Part shown: piece by piece, positions 56,931 to 63,085 of the stretch
Position numbering within the stretch: position 1 is the stretch's first letter
How the letters are laid out: each line of letters starts with the position of its first letter
Assembly: GCF_029760915.1 (NCBI RefSeq)
Contig: NZ_CP121685.1
Coordinates: forward strand, 124,001 to 188,000
Length of the DNA: 64,000 bases
Reading direction: 5' to 3'
Origin: Olleya sp. YS
GTDB taxonomy: Bacteria > Bacteroidota > Bacteroidia > Flavobacteriales > Flavobacteriaceae
Notes under the pieces: model-generated
The model's database searches: none
The model's input: only the letters and a program-made list of their open reading frames with translations
What the model was told of the DNA's origin: nothing
Made by a program: the position numbers and the translations under genes

Positions 56931-56960
56931 AAAGCTATCTTATTTACAGATAGCTTTTTT
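56931..56960 (+). terminator. Hairpin terminator after the acyl-CoA ligase gene
   Basis: A 10-bp stem (56931-56940 aaagctatct with 56948-56957) with a 7-base loop and T run to 56961. Confidence 0.85.
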
Positions 56961-56973
56961 TATGCACAATTTT

Positions 56974-57001
56974 AAATTTATTATGCATGCATAATAAATT
57001 T
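56974..57001. promoter_or_regulatory. 28-bp perfect palindrome, probable operator of the MarR regulator
   Basis: Positions 56974-57001 form a perfect inverted repeat with no mismatches, centred between 56987 and 56988 on the core ttatgcatgcataa. It has no loop and no T run, so it is not a terminator. It ends five bases before the -7 box of the marR-fad operon and so covers the -33 region. MarR dimers bind palindromes of this sort; binding here would block polymerase. The assignment to this regulator is inferred from position. Confidence 0.8.
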
Positions 57002-57005
57002 TTAC

Positions 57006-57013
57006 TATCTTTG
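57006..57013 (+). promoter_or_regulatory. Promoter -7 element of the marR-fadNAE operon
   Basis: TATCTTTG matches TAnnTTTG, 30 bases before the ATG of the MarR gene. The -33 position falls inside the palindrome, where no good TTG is seen. Confidence 0.65.
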
Positions 57014-57043
57014 GAAATGTAACTATTAATTACGTTATAACAA

Positions 57044-57493
57044 ATGAAAGATAGAACCATTGATTACATACTCAGAACCACATGGTTAGCAGTCAATAAA
57101 ATGTATAACGAGGAAGCTGCCAAATTTGGAACCACTATGGCAACTGGTTTTACATTATTAAGTATTGACCCAGAAAATGGTACGCCTTCTACTTCACTTG
57201 GTCCTATTATGGGTATGGAAGCCACAAGTCTTTCTAGAATTTTAAAACGAATGGATGAGTTAGACTTAATAGAACGTAAACCAAATCCTAATGATGGACG
57301 CGGAGTTTTAATTCACTTAACACCATATGGCAAAGAAAAACGCAAAGATGCAAAAGAGCGTGTATTAGTGTTCAATGAAGCTATTAGAGAACACGTTTCC
57401 GAAGAAAAACTAAAACACTTTTATGAAGTTTCAGATACTATAAACGAGTTAATTTCCAATAAAAAAATATATACTAAAGAATCTATAATATAA
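57044..57493 (+). CDS. MarR family transcriptional regulator of the beta-oxidation operon
   Basis: The 149-residue protein is a winged-helix MarR regulator: dimer helices at both ends, recognition helix region MEATSLSRILKRMDELDLIE, and the wing RKPNPNDGRGVLIHLTPYGK with the conserved D-x-R. Its gene precedes fadN by one base and so is the first gene of the operon. A 28-bp perfect palindrome lies in its promoter. A likely model is repression released by an acyl-CoA or fatty acid; the ligand is inferred from the genes it precedes. Confidence 0.92.
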   Translation: MKDRTIDYILRTTWLAVNKMYNEEAAKFGTTMATGFTLLSIDPENGTPSTSLGPIMGMEATSLSRILKRMDELDLIERKPNPNDGRGVLIHLTPYGKEKRKDAKERVLVFNEAIREHVSEEKLKHFYEVSDTINELISNKKIYTKESII

Positions 57494-57494
57494 T

Positions 57495-59903
57495 ATGAGC
57501 AAACGTAGAATTAAAAAAATAGCCATTATTGGTTCAGGAATTATGGGAAGCGGTATCGCTTGTCATTTTGCTAACATTGGTGTAGATGTTTTATTGTTAG
57601 ACATCGTTCCTAGAGAATTAAATGATAAAGAAAAAGCTAAAGGTCTAACTTTAGAAGATAAAGTAGTTAGAAACAGATTAGTAAATGATGCTTTAACAGC
57701 TTCATTAAAATCTAAACCCTCTCCTATTTACCATCCATCTTTTGCAAGTCGAATTACTACTGGAAACTTAGAAGACGATATTGCTAAAGTTGCAGACGTA
57801 GATTGGATTATGGAAGTTGTTGTTGAAAGATTAGACATCAAACAACAGGTATTTGAAAAATTAGAAAAATACCGTACTCCTGGTACATTAATTACATCTA
57901 ACACGTCAGGAATTCCTATTAAATTCATGAGCGAAGGACGTAGCGAAGATTTCCAAAAACACTTCTGCGGAACGCATTTCTTTAATCCTGCACGTTACTT
58001 AAAGTTATTCGAAATTATTCCTGGTCCCAAAACAAATCAAGACGTTTTAGATTTCTTAAATGAATATGGAGAAAAATTCTTAGGTAAAACATCCGTTATT
58101 GCTAAAGACACTCCTGCTTTCATTGGAAACCGTATAGGAATTTTCAGTATACAAAGTCTTTTTCACGCAGTTAAAGAATTAGATTTAACTATCGAGGAAG
58201 TTGACAAATTATCAGGACCAGTTATTGGTCGTCCTAAATCAGCAACATTTAGAACTGTTGATGTTGTAGGTTTAGATACTTTAGTTCACGTAGCAAACGG
58301 AATTAGAGAAAATTGTCCTGATGACGAACGTTCAGAATTATTCAAATTACCTAGTTTCATCAATACCATGATGGAAAACAAATGGTTAGGTAGCAAAACT
58401 GGACAAGGTTTCTACAAAAAAAGTGTGTCTGCAGACGGTAAAAAAGAAATATTATCTCTTGACTTAAACACTCTAGAATATCGTTCTGCTAAAAAAGCAA
58501 AATTTGCAACATTAGAGTTAACCAAAACAGTCGATAAGGTTGTTGACCGATTTAAAATATTAGTAAAAGGAAAAGATAAAGCAGGTGAGTTTTATAGAAA
58601 AAGCTTCACTGCTTTATTTGCATATGTATCTAATCGTATTCCAGAAATATCAGACGAGCTGTATAAGATTGATGATGCCATGAAAGCTGGTTTTGGTTGG
58701 GAACATGGTCCTTTCCAAATTTGGGATGCAATTGGTGTAGAAAAAGGTATCGAATTAATGAAAGCCGAAGGTTTAGAGCCTGCTGCTTGGGTAAATGAAA
58801 TGCTTACTTCTGGTAGTACATCTTTCTACACAGTAAAAGAAGGTGCAACATATTTCTATGATATCCCTTCTAAAACACAAACAAAAATACCTGGTCAAGA
58901 CAGTTTCATCATCTTAGATAATATTAGAAAAACAAACGAAGTATTTAAAAATTCTGGCGTTGTTATTGAAGATTTAGGTGATGGAATCCTTAACGTAGAA
59001 TTCCAATCTAAAATGAATACCATTGGTGGAGACGTACTAGCAGGTTTAAATAAAGGTATTGATTTAGCAGAAAAAGATTTTGCTGGATTAGTGGTTGGTA
59101 ATCAAGGAGCTAACTTTTCTGTTGGTGCAAACATCGGAATGATTTTTATGATGGCTGCAGAGCAAGAGTATGATGAGCTAAATATGGCTATCAAATACTT
59201 CCAAGACACTATGATGCGTATGCGTTACTCGTCTATCCCAACTATTTCTGCTCCTCACGGTATGGCTTTAGGTGGTGGTTGTGAATTATCATTACACGCA
59301 GACAAAGTTGTCGCAGCAGCAGAAACCTATATGGGACTTGTAGAATTTGGTGTTGGTGTTATTCCTGGTGGTGGAGGCTCTAAAGAAATGGCTTTGAGAG
59401 CACAAGACCTTTTCCAAAAAGGAGACGTACAACTTAATGTCTTGCAAGAACATTTCTTGACCATAGGTATGGCAAAAGTATCGACTTCGGCTTATGAAGC
59501 GTATGATTTAAACCTATTACAAAAAGGAAAAGATGTTGTGGTTGTAAATAAAGACCGTCAAATAGCTGTAGCAAAACAACACGCTATGTTAATGGCAGAT
59601 TCTGGTTACACACAACCTGTAAAACGTAAAGATGTAAAAGTATTAGGTAAACAAGCATTAGGTATGTTTTTAGTAGGGACAGACTCTATGCAAGACTCTA
59701 ACTACATCTCAGAACACGATATGAAAATTGCTAACAAATTAGCTTACGTCATGGCTGGAGGTGATTTATCAGAACCAACTTTAGTTAGCGAGCAATATTT
59801 ATTGGATTTAGAGCGTGAAGCTTTCTTAAGTTTATGTACAGAACGTAAAACTTTAGAGCGTATTCAACACATGTTAACCAAAGGAAAACCACTTCGCAAC
59901 TAG
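57495..59903 (+). CDS. fadN: 3-hydroxyacyl-CoA dehydrogenase / enoyl-CoA hydratase fusion (FadN-like)
   Basis: An 802-residue fusion that carries the hydration and second oxidation steps of beta-oxidation. The dehydrogenase comes first (Rossmann motif IGSGIMGSGIACHFANIG at about 11-28, then HFFNPARYLKLFEIIPG and the C-terminal domain repeated twice), and the crotonase domain last (NFSVGANIG, GMALGGGCEL at about 589-598, VIPGGGGSKEMAL). This order is that of Bacillus FadN and the reverse of E. coli FadB/FadJ. It starts one base after the MarR gene stop. Confidence 0.94.
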   Translation: MSKRRIKKIAIIGSGIMGSGIACHFANIGVDVLLLDIVPRELNDKEKAKGLTLEDKVVRNRLVNDALTASLKSKPSPIYHPSFASRITTGNLEDDIAKVADVDWIMEVVVERLDIKQQVFEKLEKYRTPGTLITSNTSGIPIKFMSEGRSEDFQKHFCGTHFFNPARYLKLFEIIPGPKTNQDVLDFLNEYGEKFLGKTSVIAKDTPAFIGNRIGIFSIQSLFHAVKELDLTIEEVDKLSGPVIGRPKSATFRTVDVVGLDTLVHVANGIRENCPDDERSELFKLPSFINTMMENKWLGSKTGQGFYKKSVSADGKKEILSLDLNTLEYRSAKKAKFATLELTKTVDKVVDRFKILVKGKDKAGEFYRKSFTALFAYVSNRIPEISDELYKIDDAMKAGFGWEHGPFQIWDAIGVEKGIELMKAEGLEPAAWVNEMLTSGSTSFYTVKEGATYFYDIPSKTQTKIPGQDSFIILDNIRKTNEVFKNSGVVIEDLGDGILNVEFQSKMNTIGGDVLAGLNKGIDLAEKDFAGLVVGNQGANFSVGANIGMIFMMAAEQEYDELNMAIKYFQDTMMRMRYSSIPTISAPHGMALGGGCELSLHADKVVAAAETYMGLVEFGVGVIPGGGGSKEMALRAQDLFQKGDVQLNVLQEHFLTIGMAKVSTSAYEAYDLNLLQKGKDVVVVNKDRQIAVAKQHAMLMADSGYTQPVKRKDVKVLGKQALGMFLVGTDSMQDSNYISEHDMKIANKLAYVMAGGDLSEPTLVSEQYLLDLEREAFLSLCTERKTLERIQHMLTKGKPLRN

Positions 59904-59987
59904 TTGCGAAAAGTAAAAAGGGAAAAGTAATTAGGGATTAGAAAATCACTAACTACTAATTACTAAAAACTAAATACTAAAATAAAA
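59904..59987 (+). other. Low-complexity spacer in the fad operon
   Basis: The 84 bases between fadN and fadA hold repeated short units of the type ACTAA/TTACTA (actaactactaattacta near 59947-59964) and nothing with coding potential or a stem. A similar ttaattactaattact run precedes btuB at 10681-10697. There is no terminator, so the operon probably reads through. Confidence 0.5.
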
Positions 59988-61178
59988 ATGAAAACAGCAT
60001 ATATAGTAAAAGCATACAGAACAGCAGTTGGTAAAGCACCAAAAGGCGTGTTCCGTTTTAAAAGAACTGATGAATTAGCTGCAGAAACTATCAAATACAT
60101 GATGAAGGAACTGCCTAATTTAGATCCAAAACGTATTGACGATGTGATTGTTGGTAACGCAATGCCAGAAGGCTCTCAAGGTTTAAACATGGCACGTTTA
60201 ATCTCTTTAATGGGATTAGATATTGTAGATGTTCCTGGAGTAACTGTTAACCGTTTTTGTTCGTCTGGAGTAGAAACAATTGGTATGGCAACTGCAAAAA
60301 TACAAGCCGGAATGGCAGATTGTATTATTGCTGGTGGTGCAGAAAGCATGAGTAGTGTACCAATGACAGGTTTTAAACCAGAATTAAATTACGACGTTGT
60401 AAAATCTGGTCATGAAGATTATTATTGGGGAATGGGAAATACTGCAGAAGCTGTTGCAAAACAGTTTAAAGTATCTCGTGAAGATCAAGATGAGTTTGCA
60501 TACAATTCACATATGAAAGCATTAAGAGCGCAAGCTGAAAATCGTTTTCAAGATCAAATTGTACCAATTGAAGTAGAACAAACTTATATTGATTCAAACG
60601 GAAAAAAAGCAACCAAATCTTACACAGTAACTAAGGATGAAGGTCCACGTAAAGGAACTAATCTTGAAGCTTTAGCAAAACTTAGAGCAGTATTTGCTGC
60701 TGGAGGAAGTGTTACAGCTGGTAATTCATCGCAAATGAGTGATGGCGCAGCTTTTGTAATGGTTATGAGTGAAGATATGGTTAAAGAACTAGGTTTAGAA
60801 CCAATTGCAAGAATGGTAAACTATGCTGCTGCAGGAGTTGAGCCTCGAATTATGGGTATTGGACCAGTAAAAGCCATTCCAAAAGCATTAAAACAAGCAG
60901 GTTTAAAACAAGACGATTTAGCGTTAATTGAATTAAATGAAGCGTTTGCTTCTCAATCATTAGCTGTAATTAGAGAATTAAACCTTAATCCTGATATTAT
61001 TAACGTCAATGGTGGTGCAATTGCACTTGGTCATCCATTAGGATGCACAGGAGCTAAACTATCTGTACAACTTTTTGATGAAATGCGTAAGCAAGACATG
61101 AAAGGTAAATATGGTGCAGTTACTATGTGTGTTGGTACTGGGCAAGGTGCTTGTGGAATATTCGAATTTTTAAACTAA
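59988..61178 (+). CDS. fadA: Acetyl-CoA C-acyltransferase (3-ketoacyl-CoA thiolase)
   Basis: The 396-residue thiolase cleaves 3-ketoacyl-CoA with CoA to give acetyl-CoA and a shortened acyl-CoA. It has the nucleophile Cys91 in VNRFCSSGVETI, the second signature NVNGGAIALGHPLGCTGAK with the catalytic His, and the C-terminal Cys in MCVGTGQGACGIFE. Length is that of the family (about 390). It lies between the FadN and FadE genes, as in the Bacillus fadNAE operon. Confidence 0.95.
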   Translation: MKTAYIVKAYRTAVGKAPKGVFRFKRTDELAAETIKYMMKELPNLDPKRIDDVIVGNAMPEGSQGLNMARLISLMGLDIVDVPGVTVNRFCSSGVETIGMATAKIQAGMADCIIAGGAESMSSVPMTGFKPELNYDVVKSGHEDYYWGMGNTAEAVAKQFKVSREDQDEFAYNSHMKALRAQAENRFQDQIVPIEVEQTYIDSNGKKATKSYTVTKDEGPRKGTNLEALAKLRAVFAAGGSVTAGNSSQMSDGAAFVMVMSEDMVKELGLEPIARMVNYAAAGVEPRIMGIGPVKAIPKALKQAGLKQDDLALIELNEAFASQSLAVIRELNLNPDIINVNGGAIALGHPLGCTGAKLSVQLFDEMRKQDMKGKYGAVTMCVGTGQGACGIFEFLN

Positions 61179-61204: not shown

Positions 61205-63013
61205 ATGGAAGCAACTGAAAAAGACATCTTAAGAGGAGGGCAATTCCTTGTAAAAGAAACAAATTGTGAAGACATTTTTACTCCTGAAGATTTTTCAGAA
61301 GAGCAAAACATGATGAAAGAAGCGGTAATGGAATTTAATGACCGCGAAATTATTCCTTATAAAAATAGATTTGAAGCTAAAGATTATGCATTAACAGAAG
61401 ACGTGATGCGTAAAGCTGGAGAACTTGGCTTTTTAGGAGTTGCAGTTCCTGAAGCCTATGGTGGATTGGGAATGGGATTTGTTTCCACGTGTTTAACTTG
61501 TGATTATATTTCTTCTGGAACTGGATCTTTTAGTACTGCTTTTGGTGCGCATACAGGAATTGGTACGATGCCAATTACTTTATATGGTACCGAAGAACAA
61601 AAACAAAAATATGTGCCAAAACTAGCTACTGGAGAGTGGTTTGGTGCATACTGTCTAACAGAGCCTGGTGCAGGTTCTGATGCAAATTCTGGTAAAACAA
61701 CCGCAGAATTAAGTGCAGATGGAAAATCATACAAAATTAACGGTCAAAAAATGTGGATTTCAAATGCAGGTTTCTGTAGTTTGATGATTGTTTTTGCACG
61801 TATCGAAGATGATAAAAATATTACTGGTTTTATCGTAGAATATGACCCAGAAAACCCTAATGGAATTACTTTAGGTGAAGAAGAGCATAAATTAGGTATT
61901 CGTGCATCTTCAACTAGACAAGTATTTTTTAACGACTGTGTAGTACCTGTAGAAAATATGTTAGCAGGTCGTGGTGAAGGATTTAAAATTGCCATGAATG
62001 CACTAAACGTTGGTCGTATAAAATTAGCTGCTGCATGTTTAGATTCTCAAAGACGAATTTTAACAACTGCTGTTAATTATGCTAACGAGCGTAAACAATT
62101 TAAAACGCCTATTGCAGACTTCGGTGCTATTAAAACCAAATTAGCAGAAATGGCTGCTAGTGCTTATGCTGGAGAGTCTGCAACGTACAGAGCTGCAAAA
62201 AATATAGAAGACAGAATAGCTTTAAGAGTTGCTGGTGGAAACACACATCAAGAAGCAGAATTAAAAGGTGTTGAAGAATATGCAATAGAATGTTCTATCT
62301 TAAAAGTTGCAGTGTCTGAAGATGTACAGAATTGTGCAGATGAAGGAATCCAAATATTTGGAGGAATGGGATTCTCTGAAGAAACACCAATGGAAGCAGC
62401 TTGGAGAGACGCACGTATCGCTCGTATTTACGAAGGTACTAATGAGATAAACCGAATGTTAGCGGTTGGAATGCTTGTTAAAAAAGCAATGAAAGGGCAT
62501 GTTGACCTATTAGGCCCAGCTCAAGCAGTTCAGGAAGAATTAATGGGTATACCATCTTTTGACACACCTGATTACTCTGAATTATTTTCAGAAGAAAAAG
62601 AAATGATTAAAAAGCTAAAAAAGACCTTTTTAATGGTTGCTGGTGGAGCAGTTCAAAAATACGGACCACAATTAGAAGATCACCAACAGTTATTAATAGC
62701 AGCTGCAGATATTTTAATTGAAATCTATATGGCAGAATCTGCAATTTTAAGAACAGAGAAAAACGCAAAACGTTTTGGTGAAGAAGCACAATCTGCACAA
62801 ATCGCTATGGCTAAATTATACTTATACCACGCAGTAGATACTGTTGAAGAAAAAGGAAAAGAAAGTATTATTTCTTTTGCAGAAGGTGATGAGCAACGTA
62901 TGATGCTAATGGGTCTTAAGCGTTTTACAAAATATGCTAACTATCCAGATATCGTAGATTTACGTATTGAAATAGCAGAAAAAGTTAAAGCAGAAAACAA
63001 ATACTGCTTTTAA
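61205..63013 (+). CDS. fadE: Acyl-CoA dehydrogenase (FadE-like, long form)
   Basis: I place the start at the ATG at 61205 (MEATEKDILRGGQFLVKE); a frame from 61127 would run over the end of fadA. The 602-residue flavoprotein catalyses the first oxidation of beta-oxidation. It has the FAD-binding blocks CLTEPGAGSDANSG and KMWISNAGFC, and the C-terminal QIFGGMGFSEETPME followed by IYEGTNEINRM with the likely catalytic Glu. The extra 200 residues after the usual 390-residue core match the Bacillus FadE type (about 594). It ends the operon with two terminators after it. Confidence 0.94.
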   Translation: MEATEKDILRGGQFLVKETNCEDIFTPEDFSEEQNMMKEAVMEFNDREIIPYKNRFEAKDYALTEDVMRKAGELGFLGVAVPEAYGGLGMGFVSTCLTCDYISSGTGSFSTAFGAHTGIGTMPITLYGTEEQKQKYVPKLATGEWFGAYCLTEPGAGSDANSGKTTAELSADGKSYKINGQKMWISNAGFCSLMIVFARIEDDKNITGFIVEYDPENPNGITLGEEEHKLGIRASSTRQVFFNDCVVPVENMLAGRGEGFKIAMNALNVGRIKLAAACLDSQRRILTTAVNYANERKQFKTPIADFGAIKTKLAEMAASAYAGESATYRAAKNIEDRIALRVAGGNTHQEAELKGVEEYAIECSILKVAVSEDVQNCADEGIQIFGGMGFSEETPMEAAWRDARIARIYEGTNEINRMLAVGMLVKKAMKGHVDLLGPAQAVQEELMGIPSFDTPDYSELFSEEKEMIKKLKKTFLMVAGGAVQKYGPQLEDHQQLLIAAADILIEIYMAESAILRTEKNAKRFGEEAQSAQIAMAKLYLYHAVDTVEEKGKESIISFAEGDEQRMMLMGLKRFTKYANYPDIVDLRIEIAEKVKAENKYCF

Positions 63014-63041
63014 TAGTTAAGTTTTAGTTTTAATTACCCCT

Positions 63042-63074
63042 AAAAAAGCTGTTTTATAATGAAACAGCTTTTTT
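63042..63074 (+). terminator. Hairpin terminator after fadE
   Basis: A 13-bp perfect stem (63042-63054 with 63062-63074, core gctgttt), 7-base loop and T run inside the stem end. Confidence 0.88.
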
Positions 63075-63085
63075 ATTTCGTTAAA

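Follow-up and report, generated by a model that had tools for sequence, protein, structure and literature searches.

The marR-fad locus

The window, the whole 64,000-nucleotide stretch of the Olleya sp. YS genome that was analysed, encodes a MarR-family regulator of 149 aa on the forward strand (57044..57493; recognised from its reading frame, Pfam and a structure model). It is followed on the same strand by genes for a fadN-like 3-hydroxyacyl-CoA dehydrogenase/enoyl-CoA hydratase (57495..59903), a fadA-like acyl-CoA thiolase (59988..61178) and the acyl-CoA dehydrogenase FadE (61208..63013). Pfam confirmed the MarR, FadN-like, thiolase and acyl-CoA dehydrogenase annotations, in agreement with an earlier sequence-only reading in which a MarR gene leads the beta-oxidation genes. 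The curated Bacillus model for FadE (NCBIfam NF058590) recognises this protein above its cut-off (729 bits vs 600), and the best NCBIfam match of the FadN-like protein scores 600, below its cut-off of 999. Terminator-like hairpins were identified on the forward strand after fadE (63041..63075), closing the unit, and at 56931..56957, where the hairpin ends an acyl-CoA ligase gene and separates it from marR. From the gene spacing and these hairpins, we predict that marR-fadN-fadA-fadE are transcribed as one operon. No operator of the type described below was found before the acyl-CoA ligase gene just upstream of the unit, which counts against the regulatory role proposed here.

The fadN stop codon lies within an 18-bp loop-free palindrome (59893-59910) that could form an intercistronic hairpin; this palindrome was rejected as a conserved part of the unit (stem of at least 7 in 10 of 75 relatives vs 2 when shuffled). 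A sigma-70 promoter scan of the window, using a model unsuited to this phylum, gave results at shuffle level, and a search of a defence-gene library returned no match.

Upstream of marR lies a 28-bp perfect palindrome, AAATTTATTATGCATGCATAATAAATTT (56974..57001, no strand assigned), a predicted MarR operator with its flanks. Its two 14-nt arms are 100% complementary and loop-free, exactly as first described. The -7 box of the marR promoter, which had been placed just after the palindrome as a TAnnTTTG motif, is TATCTTTG at 57006..57013 on the forward strand, with the palindrome ending at 57001 and the spacing as in relatives. The marR transcription start is expected near 57018. The palindrome is upstream of this position and so would not be part of the marR transcript; an RNA hairpin was therefore discarded as an explanation.

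This is the longest loop-free palindrome of the window (the runners-up have 18 bp), and no second copy of the 28-mer with up to three mismatches was found within the window. When the window was simulated 100 times with a first-order Markov model, one version had an arm of at least 14. By itself, without conservation, the palindrome is thus weak and modestly significant evidence for an operator and would not carry the case, which is decided by its conservation in other genomes.

Conservation of the operator at marR

A MarR protein match was obtained in 114 of 120 family genomes, the window's own genome included. We compared 80 named marR loci, the best 80 of 205 relatives, among which the closest is that of Olleya aquimaris (MarR identity 99%). 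In all 80, the 200 bp upstream of marR contain TATGC[AG]TGCATA, the complement of this pattern, or TATGCGCGCATA. The -7 box follows the centre of this core at a fixed distance of 17-18 bp in 77/80; it reads TAnnTTTG in 73 of these and TAnnTTTA in the other four. In the remaining 3/80 the centre is 9 bp before TAnnTTTG. The window shows the same arrangement, with 18 bp between operator centre and box.

In a broader set of 168 marR loci, which was not de-duplicated and includes the window's own locus, the core without its GCGC form was identified upstream of marR in 157. Five of the 11 misses carry TATGCGCGCATA (L227, L234, L238, L239, L243), five have altered cores or half-sites (L225, L242, L246, L248, L277), and the remaining one is L024. 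The gene immediately after marR is fadN in 163 of the 168 loci.

The distribution of bases in 75 distinct marR operators defines the conserved element. Half positions 2-6 are set by the search pattern; outside it, half position 9 never varies on either side, and half position 8 is the same in 72 (one side) and 71 (the other) of the 75. Pairing at position 10 (41/75 vs 31.4 shuffled) and position 11 (45/75 vs 39.7) is little above the shuffles, and at positions 12-16 it is at about shuffle level. Because the outer symmetry is near shuffle level and positions 8-9 are conserved, we conclude that the functional element is about 18 bp long, with the family consensus TAYTATGCRTGCATARTA; the idea of a full 28-bp functional element was abandoned, its outer symmetry being incidental. 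In the window the operator is TATTATGCATGCATAATA (56979..56996, no strand assigned; defined by conservation in relatives), centred between 56987 and 56988. The central base pair is non-palindromic in 40 of the 75 operators, so the perfect centre seen in the window is not required. Across the class, the two central bases of the core TATGCNNGCATA are AT, GT, AC, AA, TT, GC or TC; as they vary, they are probably not read.

The sequence-only reading pointed to another half-site, tatgca, which is indeed present at 56961-56966, 21 bp upstream of the first site. Conservation of this half-site did not hold up: it occurs in two of the five closest Olleya-type promoters among the matches listed (L046 and L051, not L047, L049 or L050). 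A true second site, 27-29 bp upstream of the first, was identified in 24 of the 80 promoters (best 80 of 205 relatives), and tatgca is out of register with it. We therefore rejected the half-site as a conserved second operator. In one relative (L105) the same core is embedded in a perfect palindrome of 40 bp, at -65 to -25 from marR.

Distribution across the class and phylum

Orthologues in the wider class, which we take to be Bacteroidia in GTDB, were sought in 198 genomes with a 28-row alignment. This yielded 40 class-wide orthologues (E of 1e-30 or better) from 26 families outside the earlier sampling. Perfect TATGCNNGCATA is present within about 220 bp upstream of 32 of the 40, compared with 3 of 8000 shuffles, and at least 9 of its 10 bases are found for 34 of the 40 (72 of 8000 shuffles). 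The perfect core is missing in 8/40, which counts against strict conservation. A gene for FadN lies downstream on the same strand in 37/40. The expectation that the palindrome would recur upstream of orthologous marR genes is thus borne out both in the 168 loci and class-wide, as is the proposed link to fad genes.

Within the family, the strict pattern WYTATGCRTGCATARW matches in 50 of 60 genomes, and the reversed pattern gives one match. In five of the 60 genomes no orthologue was detected; four of these are siteless, and G015, a genome that is 84% complete, has one site with no orthologue detected, which counts against the pairing. A phylum sample of 247 genomes, with sites counted by hand, has the strict site in 32 of 46 genomes with an orthologue (E below 1e-20) and in 2 of 201 without (Fisher p 7e-27, a value that ignores kinship). 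Both sites in the orthologue-less genomes are inside reading frames (L295, L296). Most of the 14 genomes that have an orthologue and no strict site carry a looser core at marR; for one of the genomes with an orthologue, G306, neither the strict site nor a looser core was found at marR. The reversed strict pattern matches in 8/247 genomes, which counts against perfect specificity. The looser pattern was rejected as a class-wide genome marker: it occurs in 95 of 198 genomes vs about 40 for the reversed control (counted by hand), and is therefore unspecific outside the family.

In two genomes, G330 and G218, marR is apart from fadN and has no site (L297, L298). Their eight strict sites lie elsewhere, five of them before genes for acyl-CoA dehydrogenase (L289, L291), thiolase (L286) or membrane Fe-S oxidoreductase (L287, L292). 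The sites L288, L290 and L293 are by genes without an evident fatty-acid role. These gene families were assigned by Pfam for L286, L287 and L289 and by reading the sequence for the others. Another family of the same order has the site near etfB-like genes (L283-L285).

The MarR protein and its link to the site

The regulator has the MarR domain PF01047 (33.3 bits vs a cut-off of 24.6). Its four Pfam matches are MarR, MarR_2, HTH_27 and a SarA/Rot-type domain, and no GntR or TetR domain was identified. The structure model is a winged helix (mean pLDDT 85.8, pTM 0.70) in which residues 60-72 form a predicted recognition helix that would include Thr61, Ser62, Ser64 and Arg65, with residue 61 at the helix start. 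All 50 Foldseek matches listed are MarR-type by title or by knowledge, DNA complexes included.

MarR-family proteins bind palindromes of about 16-20 bp at their own promoters. Here a conserved 18-bp palindrome at the marR promoter is accompanied by covariation between protein residues and operator bases. In 196 distinct proteins with a perfect core (core-less proteins were dropped first), residue 61 vs operator half position 7 ranks first of 129 columns by normalised mutual information, gappy columns having been removed. When raw mutual information is used instead, residue 61 takes second place, behind a C-terminal column, which counts against the association. Half-sites paired with Thr61 have A 197, G 139, T 9 and C 1 at position 7; those paired with Arg61 have A 16, C 24 and G 0. 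In a thinned set, at least one half-site has C for 19 of 20 Arg61 proteins vs 1 of 64 Thr61 proteins. Opposite this C stands a G, the base usually read by arginine. The MarR tree holds one independent pair on supported branches. The fadN tree (79 rows, quick search, simple model) holds four supported independent pairs, which change in the same direction 3.5 times on average and never in the opposite one; with only four such pairs the sign test gives p 0.125-0.5, which counts against the covariation. We take the covariation as linking the MarR protein to the palindrome DNA.

The predicted regulon

The pattern TATGCRTGCATA occurs at six places in the window's genome. Three copies precede marR, a TonB-dependent receptor gene and a nitronate-monooxygenase-like gene; a fourth separates etfB from pdhB, a fifth is 161 bp upstream of a FabH-like gene, and the sixth is beside an uncharacterised and a hydratase-like gene. 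We examined 64 non-marR sites, 59 from other genomes among the matches listed and five from the window's genome, including L157, where the 12-bp core is present and the strict flanks are absent. Gene families were assigned by Pfam from one representative each, FabH by reading. The largest group, 26 of the 64, adjoins etfB, with pdhB on the other side in 24. Others precede genes for TonB-dependent receptors (13), nitronate-monooxygenase-like enzymes (12), GDSL-lipase-like lipoproteins (3) and biotin carboxylase (2). Two are near FabH-like synthase genes (L157, L202; by sequence reading) and six lie before single other genes, one encoding an Fe-S protein like that of L287. The electron-transferring flavoprotein (ETF) accepts electrons from acyl-CoA dehydrogenase, so the etfB group fits beta-oxidation directly. 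Since there are sites at other loci too, this is a regulon rather than one operon. Thus the sequence-only proposal of a MarR-controlled fadNAE operon is supported by the conserved site and the fadN link, and falls short in confining control to a single operon.

The TonB-dependent receptor gene at G000:C1:1340881 (L158) and its counterparts in 12 relatives all have the operator upstream, 74-80 bp from the start codon (13/13 loci). The receptor has a CarboxypepD_reg-like domain, and its substrate is possibly fatty acids or lipids. The nitronate-monooxygenase-like gene at G000:C1:2839793 (L161) has the same operator, as do its counterparts in 11 relatives. At G000:C1:1639256 (L221) one operator lies between divergent genes for EtfB and a pyruvate dehydrogenase E1-beta-like protein, and this single site could therefore serve both. 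The operator also precedes genes for membrane proteins with a 4Fe-4S dicluster domain (L287, L292, L294, L206), which we presume could be ETF:quinone oxidoreductases.

Promoter geometry and proposed mechanism

We consider it very probable, from the sequence comparisons above, that the palindrome is the operator of the adjacent MarR protein, acting on the fad unit and on a wider fatty-acid regulon. The corresponding promoter box is at -12 to -5 in Flavobacterium psychrophilum, according to PMC9723704, which would place the operator centre at marR about 30 bp before the start site. An operator over the -33 region fits repression. We infer that MarR binds the operator and represses: a MarR dimer would bind the 18-bp core TATTATGCATGCATAATA, cover the -33 region and block transcription of marR-fadN-fadA-fadE. 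Release of MarR by a ligand derived from fatty acids, most likely long-chain acyl-CoA, would then let the beta-oxidation genes and the regulator rise together. That the effector is probably an acyl-CoA follows from pathway logic. This protein may also recognise the core upstream of etfB, which is divergent from pdhB, and upstream of the TonB-dependent receptor and nitronate-monooxygenase-like genes of the window's genome.

Chance, or a structural element such as a cruciform or terminator that involves no regulator, hardly deserves consideration as the origin of the palindrome. The palindrome is AT-rich and one in a hundred Markov windows holds an equally long one, but its position and sequence are conserved while its outer symmetry varies, and on this conservation we rejected a chance palindrome even though the palindrome alone is weak evidence. 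It is also very improbable, if less so, that another regulator binds the palindrome and marR is merely one of its targets. Sites at many promoters, and the siteless marR of G330 and G218, would fit such a regulator; against it are the co-occurrence of the site with the marR orthologue and its presence at marR across the class, the way residue 61 covaries with operator position 7, and the MarR fold, whose nearest matches include DNA-bound structures.

With the adjacent MarR protein as the preferred regulator, the distance from operator centre to box suggests how it might act at each target. Using a relaxed box pattern that, like the distances, was chosen after inspection of the promoters, this distance is 17-18 at marR (76/80), 14-19 at the nitronate-monooxygenase-like gene (9/12), 27-29 at etfB (24/26), 44-47 at the TonB receptor (12/13), 44-46 at the GDSL-lipase-like gene (3/3) and 50-52 at pdhB (11/26). 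Shuffled flanks gave means of 0.0-0.4 and largest counts of 1-4. The operators of etfB and the TonB receptor are further upstream, in positions that are not obviously repressive and could mean activation. It is possible, though we lean against it, that MarR is a dual regulator: with the operator at about -30, as at marR-fad and the nitronate-monooxygenase-like gene, it would repress, whereas it would act as an activator at etfB (operator near -41) and at the genes for the TonB receptor and GDSL lipase (near -58). The distances differ among targets and are tight within each, and those of etfB and the TonB receptor are reminiscent of class II and class I activator sites. However, the box pattern is relaxed and was picked with the promoters already in view, an upstream operator could also serve repression, and MarR proteins are mostly repressors. 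More tentative still, and in our judgement unlikely, is the proposal that MarR and its TATGCNNGCATA operator are the ancestral fatty-acid-degradation circuit of the class, with a dual action set by operator position: repression of marR-fad, and activation of etf, a putative TonB-dependent fatty-acid receptor and a lipase.

Implications

MarR regulators that act on a palindrome at their own gene are of an ordinary type, and control of fatty-acid degradation is known mainly for GntR-type and TetR-type regulators. A literature search of partial coverage, with subscription journals mostly outside it, found no description of this regulator, its motif or its regulon. Within that coverage, a class-conserved fatty-acid regulator of the MarR type whose regulon takes in a receptor and ETF appears to be undescribed. 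If true, a class-wide MarR solution would provide a predicted, testable fatty-acid regulon for these bacteria, point to a role for many genes whose sole annotation is MarR, and single out the TonB-dependent receptor and the membrane Fe-S oxidoreductase as candidate fatty-acid genes. If the dual circuit is true, the receptor would bring TonB-driven lipid uptake into the control of beta-oxidation. The main text of PMC9723704, in which the word MarR has 0 occurrences, describes a rise of beta-oxidation genes in F. psychrophilum exposed to fish mucus and plasma. The MarR circuit, if true, would be a candidate mechanism behind this rise.

Comparison with known systems

The gene order fadN-fadA-fadE on one strand is that of the Bacillus fadNAE operon, and FadE passes the Bacillus FadE model. 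The Bacillus operon is controlled by a TetR-type FadR, whose regulon includes etf genes, as do the sites described here. Unlike in Bacillus, the regulator linked to the fad unit is the first gene of that unit and belongs to the MarR family by Pfam; at this locus, TetR-type FadR control was not identified. The FadN-like protein also differs, in that its best NCBIfam match is below the cut-off. The GntR-type FadR of E. coli is from another protein family, and shares with the protein studied here the proposed job, control of fatty-acid degradation, and possibly the combination of repression and activation.

Among MarR-family proteins, FabT regulates fatty-acid synthesis in streptococci and lactococci. 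It resembles the present regulator in family and in its connection to fatty-acid metabolism, and a fatty acid biosynthesis transcriptional regulator chain (6jbx) is one of 70 general profile matches. However, the targets here are mainly degradation genes, with two sites (L157, L202) near FabH-like genes. CouR and HcaR are MarR-family regulators of hydroxycinnamate catabolism, and CouR answers to a CoA thioester. They are similar to our regulator in their catabolic targets, in fold (matches 6c2s and 4rgr) and, for CouR (6c28), by profile match, whereas their substrates and target genes are different and identity in the fold alignments is 16-21%.
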